Below, piece by piece: positions 2,627 to 6,774 of a DNA stretch of 7,965 nucleotides (the stretch's first letter is position 1; each line of letters begins with the position of its first letter). The stretch is from contig CAMYLR010000032.1 in the NCBI GenBank assembly GCA_947259315.1, forward strand, positions 1 to 7,965, read 5' to 3'. Made by a program: the position numbers and the translations under genes. Source of the stretch: an uncultured Gemmatimonadales bacterium (GTDB lineage: Bacteria; Gemmatimonadota; Gemmatimonadetes; JACCXV01; JAHWKZ01). A model generated the notes under the pieces. It ran no database searches. It saw nothing but the letters and a program-made list of their open reading frames with translations, and had not been told where the DNA came from.

Positions 2627-3685
2627 CTAGGGCCCGGTGCCCTTCGCCTCGGCTTCGCGCTGGGCGATGAGCCTCTCCAGGTAGTCACGACGCGTCTCCA
2701 CGCGCTGGAGCTCGGCGTGCAATCGGTCCCGCTCCGCACCCTCCGGCGTTTCCTTGATCAGCGCCCCGGACTGTTCGATCTCCGCCTCTAACTTCTTGCA
2801 CGTCTCACGAAGCGCTTCCAATGACTCCGCCTCGTCCGCTTTGTCGAAGACGACTTCGTCCGGCGTGGAGGCAGCGGAGGAAGGGGGCGCCGCGGGCGTC
2901 GGCCTTGGGCGGAACACTTGATCGGCGGAAAGCCTGCGCTGATTCATAAACGTTGGCGAGACGATCTCGATCTTCCCGTCGTGCAAAGCGTCCATCACGT
3001 TACCGCGCAGGTGAGAGCGCACCGAGACGAGTCGCTTGACGTCGGTCAAGATGCCGGCCGCGCGGTACGTCACCGAGAAGTCACCGAGTTCCAGGATCTG
3101 GACGAATGGATCTTCCAGCTCCGTCTTACGCGCCGCTTCGAGCAACACCTCTTCGACCTGCGCACGGGGGATGTCGTAACCCAAGGAGACGGTCGCCGAT
3201 AGAACGGTCCCCGAAGTCCGTATTGTCGTGACCGGGTGTGTCACCAGGTAGAGGTTCGGCAGCGTGGTGAGCTCGCGATCTTCGGTTTGAATCTCGGTGT
3301 GGAGCAGACCGCGCTCGGAGACGCGGCCAAAGTGCTCGCCGCAGCGGATGAAATCGCCGATACGGAAGTTGCGAACCGCGCGCAACATGAAACCGGCCAA
3401 CGCATTACCGAGAAACGTCGTGGCCGAGAGGGCGACCGCTGCGCTGAAGACGAGCCCGAGAACTCGGATGAGCTCCAGGCGGGTACCGGCCGCCATTGGC
3501 AGCATGAGCAGAACGATCAGCGCGCCGACCACAGTGGCCGCCAGCATGAACAGCTGGCTCCGAAGTCCCAAGCCGCGAGCCGGCCCGCTGCGCTGGAGGA
3601 CGTGGTTCAACACGAACAGCGCGAACACGACTCCGATGAGGGCGCCGGTTGAAGGAAGGAAGTCTCTCAGTAGCTCGATGGGCAC
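2627..3685 (-). CDS. MscS-family mechanosensitive channel with C-terminal coiled coil
   Basis: A 352-residue inner-membrane protein expected to open on membrane tension and release solutes during hypo-osmotic shock. Three hydrophobic helices lie at about residues 13-30, 44-66 and 74-104. The third is Gly/Ala-rich (FLGNALAGFMLRAVRNFRIGD) and leads into the beta domain with the family pattern GEHFGRVSERG...TTLPN (116-144), then the alpha/beta cytoplasmic domain ending IEIVSPTFMNQR (239-250). After a Pro/Ser-rich linker (258-276) comes a charged Glu/Arg heptad-like helix (about 283-346) that probably forms a coiled coil and is not part of the E. coli MscS core. The start is GTG at 3685; no ATG lies in the open frame upstream and GGAG abuts the GTG, too close for a normal ribosome site, so the start is less certain than the gene. 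The cyclase follows 90 bp downstream on the same strand, so the two may share a transcript. Confidence 0.9.
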   Translation of the reverse strand: MPIELLRDFLPSTGALIGVVFALFVLNHVLQRSGPARGLGLRSQLFMLAATVVGALIVLLMLPMAAGTRLELIRVLGLVFSAAVALSATTFLGNALAGFMLRAVRNFRIGDFIRCGEHFGRVSERGLLHTEIQTEDRELTTLPNLYLVTHPVTTIRTSGTVLSATVSLGYDIPRAQVEEVLLEAARKTELEDPFVQILELGDFSVTYRAAGILTDVKRLVSVRSHLRGNVMDALHDGKIEIVSPTFMNQRRLSADQVFRPRPTPAAPPSSAASTPDEVVFDKADEAESLEALRETCKKLEAEIEQSGALIKETPEGAERDRLHAELQRVETRRDYLERLIAQREAEAKGTGP

Positions 3686-3806
3686 CTCCGGCTGAGTGGC
3701 GTTGTTGGGCAGATGCTGACCGCTGTGGACACGATGCGCAAGTCTGGGCGGAGACGATACGGGACTTTCCCCACAGACGCGGGTCTCAGCTCCCGGCTAT
3801 CCTAAG

Positions 3807-3815
3807 TGTTACAAG
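3807..3815 (+). promoter_or_regulatory. Possible extended -10 promoter element for riboswitch 1
   Basis: TGTTACAAG matches the extended -10 layout (TGn plus a TAnnnT-like hexamer, TACAAG here) and would start RNA at about 3822, the 5' edge of the aptamer. No convincing -35 hexamer is found 16-18 bp upstream. The equivalent place before the second aptamer (4665-4670, ATTAAG) is weaker. Treat as a candidate only. The rest of the divergent gap 3686-3806 shows no other clear element. Confidence 0.25.
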
Positions 3816-3820
3816 TGAGC

Positions 3821-3941
3821 GAGTAGGCCACGAAAAGGCAAACCCGGCGAAAGCCGGGGACGCAAAGCTACGGATCCTCGCTTCCTACGCGACGCCTTCC
3901 GACGCCACGCAGGATCCTCAAGACCGCCGAGCCGCCGCAGG
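3821..3941 (+). promoter_or_regulatory. c-di-GMP-I (GEMM-I) riboswitch aptamer 1
   Basis: The core GGCAAA (3837-3842), a CCCGGC-GAAA-GCCGGG tetraloop hairpin (3843-3858), GACGCAAAGC (3859-3868) and a GGATCCT/AGGATCC stem (3872-3878 with 3911-3917) follow the GEMM-I consensus in order and spacing. GAGCCGCCG (3929-3937) fits the conserved 3' part. The residue that contacts the ligand and separates c-di-GMP from cGAMP types (G20 in Vc2 numbering) is G3838, which predicts c-di-GMP; the stacking A47 equivalent is A3866. The outer arm carries a long loop (3879-3910). The second aptamer shows a compensatory base-pair change in the tetraloop hairpin, good evidence that the RNA folds this way. It precedes and should control the lipoprotein gene at 3986. 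Confidence 0.92.
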
Positions 3942-3985
3942 TCTCCCCTTTCCCAGGGTCCGAGCACCAACTACAAGGGGGAAAA
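3940..3985 (+). promoter_or_regulatory. Expression platform 1 with Shine-Dalgarno sequence
   Basis: A strong Shine-Dalgarno sequence, AAGGGGG (3975-3981), stands 4 nt before the ATG at 3986. CCCCTT (3945-3950), immediately after the aptamer, is exactly complementary to AAGGGG (3975-3980) and could hide it. GGTCT (3940-3944) is complementary to AGACC (3921-3925) inside the aptamer, giving an alternative helix that would compete with the ligand-bound fold. No hairpin with a T-run is present, so control of translation is more likely than termination. The pairings are seen; the direction of switching is not determined. Confidence 0.5.
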
Positions 3986-4465
3986 ATGTACAGAGCGTTA
4001 ACGGCGCTGGTTGTCGTAACGGTGATGGTCGCCGGCTGCGCCACCGAGAGTGGTGGTCGCGCCGGACGAACATCGCCAGCGCCCGGATGGTACGGTGATA
4101 TTCAAGTTGGTATGGAGGGCGGTGACGAAAGCGAAAGCGTTGTCGCCAACGTCACGACGACGCGGCTGACCGACGAGCGAGCCAGGTCATCGGTCACACT
4201 ACGGGGCAAGCTGCCGGCCGGCACGTACCCGTGGTTTATCCATACTGGGACCTGTGAAGATGGTTCCGAAGGGCCGATCCTCGGGAGGCCTGAGGACTAC
4301 CAGATGCTGACGCCGGATGCGGAGGGTTACCACACCGCCACCGCCAATCTGGAGGTGCCGCTCGATCTGGATGGCAGCTACTACATCGCCATCCACAACG
4401 CCGAAGAGGTCAGTCCCATGACGACGATCGTTGCTTGTGGGGAACTCGAGCGCCGGGGTAGCTGA
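3986..4465 (+). CDS. Small lipoprotein with degenerate Cu/Zn-SOD-like pattern, c-di-GMP riboswitch controlled
   Basis: A 159-residue protein with a lipoprotein signal: positively charged N-terminus, hydrophobic stretch 5-16 and lipobox VAGC with Cys18 as the lipidated residue. The mature part is predicted beta-rich. LPAGTYPWFIHTGTC (76-90), YYIAIH (132-137) and VACGEL (149-154) follow the order of the copper-binding HxH, the later Cu-ligand His and the disulphide Cys of Cu/Zn superoxide dismutases. Only His86 and His137 of the copper ligands appear to remain, the first His of HxH is Phe84, and a zinc loop is not recognisable. Cys90 and Cys151 could form the conserved disulphide. A dismutase activity is therefore unlikely; a SOD-fold or CHRD-like structural or ligand-binding role is an inference from pattern. 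Start is supported by AAGGGGG. Overlapping reading frames in this region lack any such features. Confidence 0.85.
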   Translation: MYRALTALVVVTVMVAGCATESGGRAGRTSPAPGWYGDIQVGMEGGDESESVVANVTTTRLTDERARSSVTLRGKLPAGTYPWFIHTGTCEDGSEGPILGRPEDYQMLTPDAEGYHTATANLEVPLDLDGSYYIAIHNAEEVSPMTTIVACGELERRGS

Positions 4466-4666
4466 GCACGGGTACTTGCACGACGACGAAGTCTCTGCAC
4501 GCAGCGGGGCGTTCGCATGAACGTCCCGCGCCTCGAAGCGCGCGCGATGCCCTGACCCGGCTGGCGGCTAAGACCCGAGAGTAGAGCCGCAGGAGGCCCG
4601 TACAATCAATTGCAGAAAAGCCAGTTACGGTTTCCACCTCATGTAATGTCTAGTCGAAGTGACGAT
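4466..4666 (+). other. Intergenic spacer between the lipoprotein gene and riboswitch 2
   Basis: No coding potential was recognised. It holds the hairpin at 4504-4529 and a TACAAT hexamer (4601-4606) that would be a good -10 box, starting RNA near 4613, but no -35 hexamer is recognisable 16-18 bp upstream. A separate promoter for the second unit is plausible because the hairpin stands between it and the lipoprotein gene. Confidence 0.4.
4504..4529 (+). terminator. Strong hairpin after the lipoprotein gene, terminator-like but without T-run
   Basis: An 11-bp stem (4504-4514 with 4519-4529, one G-T wobble) closes a GCAT tetraloop, 38 nt after the stop codon at 4465. The stability and position suit the end of a transcript, but the downstream bases GCCTCGAAGC contain no T-tract. 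It may act as a 3' stabilising hairpin or as part of Rho-dependent termination rather than as a classical intrinsic terminator. Confidence 0.5.
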
Positions 4667-4676
4667 TAAGTGAGCG

Positions 4677-4799
4677 AGTAGGCCAAGAAAAAGGCAAATC
4701 CGGCGAAAGCCGGAGACGCAAAGCTACGGATCCTCGCTTCCTCCGCGACGCCTTCAGCGACGCCACGAAGGATCCTAAGACCGCCGAGCCGCCGCAGGG
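4677..4799 (+). promoter_or_regulatory. c-di-GMP-I (GEMM-I) riboswitch aptamer 2
   Basis: The same architecture as the aptamer at 3821: GGCAAA (4693-4698), TCCGGC-GAAA-GCCGGA hairpin (4699-4714), GACGCAAAGC (4715-4724), GGATCCT/AGGATCC stem (4728-4734 with 4769-4775) and GAGCCGCCG (4786-4794). The c-di-GMP-selecting G is G4694 and the A47 equivalent is A4722. Relative to copy 1 the terminal pair of the tetraloop hairpin changes from C-G (3843-3858) to U-A (4699-4714), which preserves pairing. It stands in front of the GAF-HlyD gene and should control that operon. Confidence 0.92.
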
Positions 4800-4842
4800 T
4801 CTCCCTCTCAACAGGCCATAGTACAACCAACCCGGGGAGGAG
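4798..4842 (+). promoter_or_regulatory. Expression platform 2 with Shine-Dalgarno sequence
   Basis: GGGGAGGAG (4834-4842) is a very strong Shine-Dalgarno sequence. CTCCC (4801-4805), directly after the aptamer, can pair with GGGAG (4835-4839). GGTCT (4798-4802) can pair with AGACC (4778-4782) within the aptamer. Both complementarities occur at the same places in the platform after aptamer 1, although the spacer between differs almost completely. This supports translational control, with direction unknown. The ribosome site lies 24 nt before ATG 4867, too far for direct use there. Confidence 0.45.
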
Positions 4843-4852
4843 CCAGCCATTC

Positions 4853-4870
4853 ATGAGCGGGCTCTCATGA
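4853..4870 (+). CDS. Possible five-codon leader ORF (MSGLS) translationally coupled to the GAF-HlyD gene
   Basis: ATG 4853 starts five codons, MSGLS, ending at TGA 4868-4870, which overlaps ATG 4867 as ATGA. The strong GGGGAGGAG at 4834-4842 is 10 nt upstream of this ATG, closer than to the main ATG. Translation of this mini-ORF could deliver ribosomes to ATG 4867 by reinitiation. An alternative reading is an ATT start at 4849, in frame with the main gene and 6 nt after the Shine-Dalgarno sequence, adding HERAL before the annotated Met. Sequence alone cannot choose between them. Confidence 0.3.
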   Translation: MSGLS

Positions 4871-6774
4871 CTGCCAGCCCGACCGCGACCACGCGGCGAG
4901 AGCAAGCCGACCTTCTGTATGAGGCATCACTCGAGTTCAACTCGACGCTCGATCTCGATGAGCTCTTGCCGAGGTTGTTCGATCGCGTGCTCGAAATCCT
5001 GGACGCGGAGGCCGGGTCGATCTGGCTATGCCGCAATGGTAACGTGGTGTGCCACTTGGCTAGAGGACCCGCCAGCGAGCAACTCAAGGACCTCGAGCTT
5101 CCACTGGGTGCTGGCATCGTAGGTGACGTCGCGCGCCGGGGAGAACCGGAGCTGGTGGACGACGTCCGCGACGATCCGCGATTCATCTATCAGGTCGACG
5201 AGGCCACCGGGTATGCCACGCGCTCAATGTTGGCCGCGCCGCTCAAAGCACAAGACGAAGTCTTGGGCGTGTTCCAGTTGCTTAACAAGCGTTCAGGGAC
5301 CGGCCAGTTCGACCAGCGCGACATGGCGCTGCTGACTGGGTTGAGTGCAACCGCCGGGTTGGCATTACGTAACGCCCAGCTTCACGTCGCCGAAAAAGAG
5401 GCGCGCGACTTGAAGTCCCTGCTCCGCATTAGCCAGGAACTCACCTCGACCCTGGATGTCGATCGATTAGTGCTATCGGTAGTGAACCTGGGTAGCCAGG
5501 CCCTGCCCTACGATCGCGCGGCGATCGCACTTGACTTAGGGGGACGCCTTTCGATTCAGGCGATTTCCGGACAGAAGCCAGGCGAGATGAACCCCGAAGA
5601 TGTCAGCGACCTCGAGCGGCTCTTGCCGTGGCTTGCGGAAAAGGACGCGCTCACCTACTTGGCGGACGTCGAATCTCAGGACGACGCGGCCATGACACTG
5701 CGTGAGAGGTTCGCTGACTACCTCCATCGTTCGGGAGCAAGATCGATCTGCGCTGCCAGACTCGAGGACGACGAAGGGCGTTTAGGCGCTCTCTATCTCG
5801 AGTCCAAGCAACCCGACTCTTTCCCCGAGGTCGAGCTCGAGGAGCTGGGGCTGCTTGCCAACCAAACAACGGTCGCGCTGCGCAATGCACAACTCTACGA
5901 CCAAGTTCCGTTCATCGGCGTGGTTGAACGAGTGGGCGGCTGGAAACGCCGGCTGGTTGAGGCCCAGGGACGACCGCTGCTAAAGCGGGTAGGAATCCGA
6001 GTCGCCGTGGTCGCAGCGATTCTCCTGATCCCATGGGGAGCGCGGGTCAAGCCCCCGGAGACGGTGCTGCTGCCCGGAGACCGCACGCCGGTTCGGGCAA
6101 CGGTTGCCGGGTTGATCGACGAGGTCCGAATCGAAGAAGGAGAGGCGGTTGTCGCAGGCCATGTGATGGCCCTGCTGCGCGCCGATGATCTAAGCATCGA
6201 GAGCCAAGAGGTAAGGGCCTCGCTCGCCGTTGCGCGGCGAGATGCCGCCGCGGCTCGGAGCCGTGGCGATCAGGGCGCCGCACAGGTCGCGGAGCTGCGT
6301 GCGCGGGAGATGGAGAATCGTCTGGCAGTCATCGACGAACAGATGGACCGAACCCTCATCAAAGCAAGGCAAGCCGGCGTCGTTCTCACTCCGCGTCCGC
6401 GCGAAATGGTGGGTCAGTGGCTGCGCGAGGGAGAGACGTTCGTGGTCCTTGGTCAAACTGACCGGCTTGAGATCGAATCGCGGGTCGCTCAACATGACAT
6501 CGGGCGCGTACGCGAAGGACAAGAGATCCGGGTCCGGGCGTCCGCACGACCGGAGTACACGTTTGTCGGAACAGTGACCAAGATCGCAGCGCACGCGGAT
6601 TCGTTGCCTGGAGGCGAACCCACGTTCTTGGTGCGGGCGGAGATCGACAACACCGAAGGGGTTTTGCGACCCGGGATGGAAGCAAAAGCAAAAATCGTGG
6701 CCGGGCTACGCCCCGTCGGTTGGTTGATGGTGCGTCCGTTGTTCAACTGGACTCGAATGAGGATGTGGAGATGA
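4867..6774 (+). CDS. Membrane adaptor with two GAF sensor domains fused to HlyD-type periplasmic adaptor
   Basis: A 635-residue protein. GAF1 (about 28-172) and GAF2 (about 185-343) lie in the cytoplasm and each ends with the GAF-typical ALRNAQL helix. Both are small-molecule-binding folds. GAF1 holds NK(140-141)...F148xxxD152, close to the NKxnFx3DE motif of cyclic-nucleotide-binding GAF domains. A basic stretch (359-378) precedes one membrane helix (about 376-393), so the C-terminal half is periplasmic. That half is a full adaptor: first lipoyl half (407-441), short helical hairpin (442-495), second lipoyl half with KARQAGVV (499-506), beta-barrel, and closing RPGMEAKAKI (601-610), then an aromatic/basic tail. 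It probably joins an inner-membrane exporter or protease partner not seen here. Control is by aptamer 2, with coupling of adaptor function to a ligand as inference. Its stop overlaps the next start as ATGA, so the two form an operon. Confidence 0.88.
   Translation: MTASPTATTRREQADLLYEASLEFNSTLDLDELLPRLFDRVLEILDAEAGSIWLCRNGNVVCHLARGPASEQLKDLELPLGAGIVGDVARRGEPELVDDVRDDPRFIYQVDEATGYATRSMLAAPLKAQDEVLGVFQLLNKRSGTGQFDQRDMALLTGLSATAGLALRNAQLHVAEKEARDLKSLLRISQELTSTLDVDRLVLSVVNLGSQALPYDRAAIALDLGGRLSIQAISGQKPGEMNPEDVSDLERLLPWLAEKDALTYLADVESQDDAAMTLRERFADYLHRSGARSICAARLEDDEGRLGALYLESKQPDSFPEVELEELGLLANQTTVALRNAQLYDQVPFIGVVERVGGWKRRLVEAQGRPLLKRVGIRVAVVAAILLIPWGARVKPPETVLLPGDRTPVRATVAGLIDEVRIEEGEAVVAGHVMALLRADDLSIESQEVRASLAVARRDAAAARSRGDQGAAQVAELRAREMENRLAVIDEQMDRTLIKARQAGVVLTPRPREMVGQWLREGETFVVLGQTDRLEIESRVAQHDIGRVREGQEIRVRASARPEYTFVGTVTKIAAHADSLPGGEPTFLVRAEIDNTEGVLRPGMEAKAKIVAGLRPVGWLMVRPLFNWTRMRMWR

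Follow-up and report, generated by a model that had tools for sequence, protein, structure and literature searches.

Two c-di-GMP class I aptamers ahead of two genes

The window, a stretch of 7,965 nucleotides from an uncultured Gemmatimonadales bacterium, carries two similar RNA elements on its + strand, termed here copy a and copy b. Copy a (aptamer at 3828-3940) lies directly 5′ of a gene for a lipoprotein of 159 aa (3986-4465, open reading frame from the ATG at 3986), and copy b (aptamer at 4684-4797) lies directly 5′ of a gene for a GAF-HlyD fusion protein of 635 aa (4867-6774, identified with Pfam), so that each copy heads its own gene as the earlier note had described. Upstream of copy a, the - strand encodes a TPR protein that resembles nucleotide cyclases (2-2536) and a channel of the MscS type (2627-3685), and both genes point away from it.

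Searches with Infernal identified both copies as full-length c-di-GMP class I aptamers. Copy a scored 65.0 bits against RF03167 (E 5.3e-14) and 56.0 bits against RF01051, and copy b 65.9 bits (E 2.9e-14) and 60.2 bits, which for both copies is above the gathering scores of 59 bits (RF03167) and 35 bits (RF01051). The check with the GEMM-I model RF01051 that the earlier note had proposed is thus passed twice, but the best Rfam match for either copy is RF03167. Because the covariance scores agree with the nucleotides that contact the ligand (G, A and C; see below), the identity of both copies as c-di-GMP-I riboswitches, already proposed from the letters, is well supported.

A MAFFT comparison of positions 3701-3990 with 4556-4870 showed a single continuous block of similarity, which begins at AAGTGAGCGAGTAGGCC (3813 and 4668), reaches ~3948 and ~4806, where it ends at GTCTCCC just past the aptamer, and contains ~6 substitutions and 4 short indels. 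No comparable similarity was present in the flanks outside the block within these ranges, and the two copies were 93% identical in a DNA search; their description as near-identical elements in unlike surroundings holds. Besides the aptamers, the block takes in a shared 5′ flank (3813-3827 for copy a and, by alignment with it, 4668-4683 for copy b), which in copy a holds the likely 5′ strand of P1 (AGGCC), as judged from alignment and sequence. P1 is short in both copies and departs from the RF03167 model, with a mismatch marked in the Infernal alignment, and P2 carries in both, by alignment, a GAAA loop. The pair that closes P2 is C-G in copy a (3843/3858) and U-A in copy b (4699/4714); among the nine long-loop copies it is C-G in seven, C-A in one and U-A in one (copy 4684). 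This change had been read as selection on the fold. The change is real but is one event and weak evidence alone, and the real evidence for the fold is the covariance scores.

The lipoprotein had been called SOD-like, and its family can be assigned weakly to a SOD/CHRD-like group, with support from profile searches only: the protein matched Cu/Zn SOD at E 0.007, and CHRD was matched in 5 of 12 family members. The structural route, through a single-sequence model that was too weak (pLDDT 62.7), gave no match at E 0.001. At 4235-4243 the protein reads PWFIH where its relatives have PWHIH; of two histidines that are conserved elsewhere, it has thus lost one. The second protein combines GAF domains and an HlyD-type membrane-fusion part in one chain; its relatives share 55-57% in Gemmatimonadota and 28-40% in Acidobacteria and others, and the nearest named ones are Gemmatimonadota MAGs.

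A long extension of P3

The least described feature of the two RNAs is an extension of P3 at 3884-3913 in copy a (3884-3896 opposite 3901-3913) and 4740-4771 in copy b (4740-4752 opposite 4759-4771), which appears as an unaligned insertion in the cmscan alignment. This addition of ~30 nt to the outer loop (CCTCCGCGACGCC...GACGCCACGAAGG) is kept in six of the nine good copies of the genome. Some twelve further Gemmatimonadota genomes of the class share it, and most of these belong to one other family; within the searches made, it was found only in this one Gemmatimonadota class. It can be drawn as a helix of 13 positions with four A.C mismatches, which become standard pairs in diverged copies, and one C.A is flipped to A.C in copy a and in the copy on contig C30. 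These replacements are suggestive, but covariation across the extension was not significant (P 0.25 among eight distinct rows). We tentatively suggest, as a reading with somewhat less than even chances, that the long P3 extension marks a structural subtype that multiplied in this genome, moved onto unrelated surface-protein genes and changed its platform, which would be a terminator in relatives and of another kind here.

Further copies and their history

The 2.4-Mb genome, in which the window belongs to contig C32, contains eleven copies in all, nine of them good and two degenerate (C24:142242 and C11:81541). Judged by their N-termini, the proteins encoded downstream mostly have a lipobox or signal peptide; the remainder include a TPR protein besides the GAF-HlyD fusion. 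RF03167 was matched in 38 of 101 related genomes, and matches to a model built in this analysis place the RNA in 176 of 394 genomes across the class. Separate copies on neighbouring genes occur on contig C24 of the same genome (three, one of them degenerate) and as pairs in three other genomes (G003, G028 and G059). The arrangement of copies a and b, which the earlier note had presented as special, thus follows a common pattern and is ordinary in kind. In G003 (L049, G003:C88), two near-identical leaders at contig positions 9602 and 13333 on the - strand, 3.7 kb apart, precede two similar lipoprotein genes. The degenerate copy C24:142242 (L012:4243-4300) has kept P2 and lost P3 and stands before an intact-looking PD40 beta-propeller gene; its upstream region still resembles that of the neighbouring good copies.

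Tandem c-di-GMP-I riboswitches, of which 347 doublets and 12 triplets have been described (PMC9481103), likewise consist of complete riboswitches that resemble each other and lie near one another on the same strand. Unlike in these, a whole gene (the lipoprotein gene, 3986-4465) separates copies a and b, and we rejected a tandem riboswitch in one leader on this ground. True tandem copies in one leader are found in genome G008, where three lie ~157 nt apart. Nearer precedents for copies a and b are the riboswitch clusters of Desulfobacca acetoxidans, separated by ORFs within 7 kb (PMC9481103), and Geobacter sulfurreducens, in which several loci are preceded by GEMM copies (PMC8683041).

The proposal that both copies came from a single duplication did not hold up well. 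Across the core alignment, only 3 positions separate copy a from the C30 copy, against 10 that separate it from copy b, and FastTree groups copy a with the C30 copy (support 0.88) and leaves copy b outside. The 5′ flank is more fully common to copies a and b, and in part common to C30. One local duplication is no simple explanation of this pattern, and spread followed by later exchange appears as likely. On contigs C4, C24 and C30 the copies are no more than ~1 kb away from a contig end, which looks as though these repeats broke the assembly. Because several copies are near contig ends in a MAG, a chimeric assembly is conceivable.

In the other genomes searched, no riboswitch was found beside relatives of the GAF-HlyD gene, and none was found beside 29 homologues of the lipoprotein gene. 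We rejected a conserved riboswitch-gene association for this reason, and it seems that the switch was added to the two genes within this lineage.

Ligand, function and alternative explanations

Vc2 of Vibrio cholerae touches its ligand through G20, A47 and C92 (PMC4744006). By alignment to Vc2, these nucleotides correspond to 3837, 3864 and 3935 in copy a and to 4693, 4720 and 4792 in copy b. Because this canonical set is present, c-di-GMP is the likely ligand of both copies. Copies a and b also share with Vc1 and Vc2 (RF01051, PMC4744006) the fold, the GAAA-capped P2 and the position of a single copy ahead of a gene for a secreted or surface protein, and differ from them in the long conserved P3 extension, the shifted P1 and a platform that was not recognised; the expression platform of Vc1 is likewise unknown (PMC4744006).

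For turnover of the ligand, the genome offers four GGDEF matches, three strong and one weaker, and one EAL match; no match to PilZ was found in the genome. The EAL domain and one GGDEF domain share a single open frame of 733 aa just upstream of riboswitch copy C29:60852. This frame (G000:C29:59327-60937, L014) lies directly 5′ of the copy that heads the TPR gene, and the riboswitch-TPR pair recurs in G001.

The explanation that we consider probable as a whole starts from what was computed, namely the aptamer identity, the pocket nucleotides, the place ahead of genes, the further copies and the GGDEF and EAL matches. Copies a and b would belong to a set of c-di-GMP class I riboswitches that is spread over the genome, and each would occupy the 5′ leader of a single gene. 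Binding of c-di-GMP in the G20/A47/C92 pocket would stabilise P1 as well as the contact by which P2 packs on P3, and the stabilised aptamer would alter expression of the gene behind it, with translation initiation as a plausible output step; the two copies may respond alike, as the earlier note had inferred. Both genes would have gained the switch as riboswitch copies spread in the lineage. Copies a and b are in this respect sound but ordinary members of a known riboswitch class, and they extend a known RNA sensor to a c-di-GMP regulon of several genes in a phylum that has received little study; in the literature searched, a single paper mentions Gemmatimonadota, c-di-GMP and riboswitch together, each of them once. 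The GAF-HlyD fusion and the SOD/CHRD-like lipoprotein would come under the c-di-GMP signal, and in a genome without a PilZ match the riboswitch may be a main reader of c-di-GMP.

That the copies sense another dinucleotide, either cGAMP or the ligand of the GGC variant, is improbable. It would agree with the higher scores of RF03167 (c-di-GMP-I-GGC) over RF01051 for both copies, but the RF03167 consensus has a G where Vc2 has A47 (GACGCGAAgC in the Infernal alignment), which we take, from our reading of the Rfam consensus, to be the middle letter of the name GGC. Copies a and b have A at this middle contact, as do all 33 copies checked in the class, and we rejected the GGC variant even though RF03167 is the best match. 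The cGAMP-binding forms have A at position 20 (PMC7288161), and cGAMP-sensing GEMM-I was set aside because both copies have G there. It is more improbable still that one or both copies are functionless relics of the spread of the riboswitch: degenerate copies do exist in the genome (C24:142242 and C11:81541), but copies a and b keep the conserved core and their scores are among the best in the genome.

A stronger competitor, to which we give perhaps one chance in three, concerns transcription. The earlier note had placed the copies at the heads of two transcription units, and a gene does stand behind each copy, but no clear promoter or terminator separates the two genes: on the + strand we found no consensus promoter, also not in the stretch from the lipoprotein gene to copy b, and no U-tailed terminator in this stretch. 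Both genes share the strand, and the distance from the stop codon of the lipoprotein gene to the 5′ flank that copy b has in common with copy a is 203 bp. These features would suit one operon with two riboswitches, in which copy a heads the transcript and the intercistronic copy b sets the expression of GAF-HlyD on top. Against it stand a strong GC-rich hairpin in the intergenic stretch on the + strand (4504-4529, from fold and sequence), which has no T run, a weak promoter-like match 5′ of copy b and the fact that other copies in the genome head single genes. In the promoter weight-matrix scan, the P value was 0.057 for copy b and 0.21 for copy a, and a clear promoter was found for only some copies. 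Upstream of copy a lies CCCCACAGAC, which the C24 copies have as well, and its placement fits a -35 region.

Output of the two riboswitches

No intrinsic terminator was found after either copy on the + strand. In the predicted fold, the Shine-Dalgarno of each gene is paired to a run of pyrimidines that directly follows the aptamer, with differing sequences in the two leaders; in the lipoprotein gene leader (3941-3985) the tract at 3945-3951 is predicted to pair with AAGGGGG at 3975-3981. This pairing was no stronger than in dinucleotide-shuffled leaders, and the Shine-Dalgarno was not freed when the aptamer core was forced in the predicted fold. Because shuffled leaders pair equally well, we do not accept sequestration of the Shine-Dalgarno as a proven switch, and because in addition the forced core leaves the site paired, translational control is a plausible best guess for the output and only a guess.

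Related long-loop copies offer a hint at the direction of control. In six of these (L154-L159, in genomes G224, G367, G293, G349, G187 and G279), as read by eye, a near reverse complement of the P3 3′ strand (GACCGCCGAGCTACCG) lies a short way downstream, and in most of the six a stretch rich in T comes after it. From the letters, this is evidently a terminator-like hairpin whose 5′ arm would be the P3 3′ strand of the aptamer itself. Since a folded aptamer precludes such a terminator, an ON switch is expected for these six. Copies a and b do not have the second terminator arm. Because the related copies carry a terminator that ligand binding should prevent, the ON direction is by analogy slightly favoured for copies a and b as well. 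The next ORF behind L154-L159 starts with MKNRNG.LMSVADFQAEL or similar.

The leader of the GAF-HlyD gene (4798-4866) has its Shine-Dalgarno, GGGGAGGAG, at 4834-4842. This good site serves an ORF of five codons (MSGLS, 4853-4870). Because the stop codon of this ORF and the main start codon (4867) overlap in the letters ATGA, the arrangement suggests that MSGLS is translationally coupled to GAF-HlyD.
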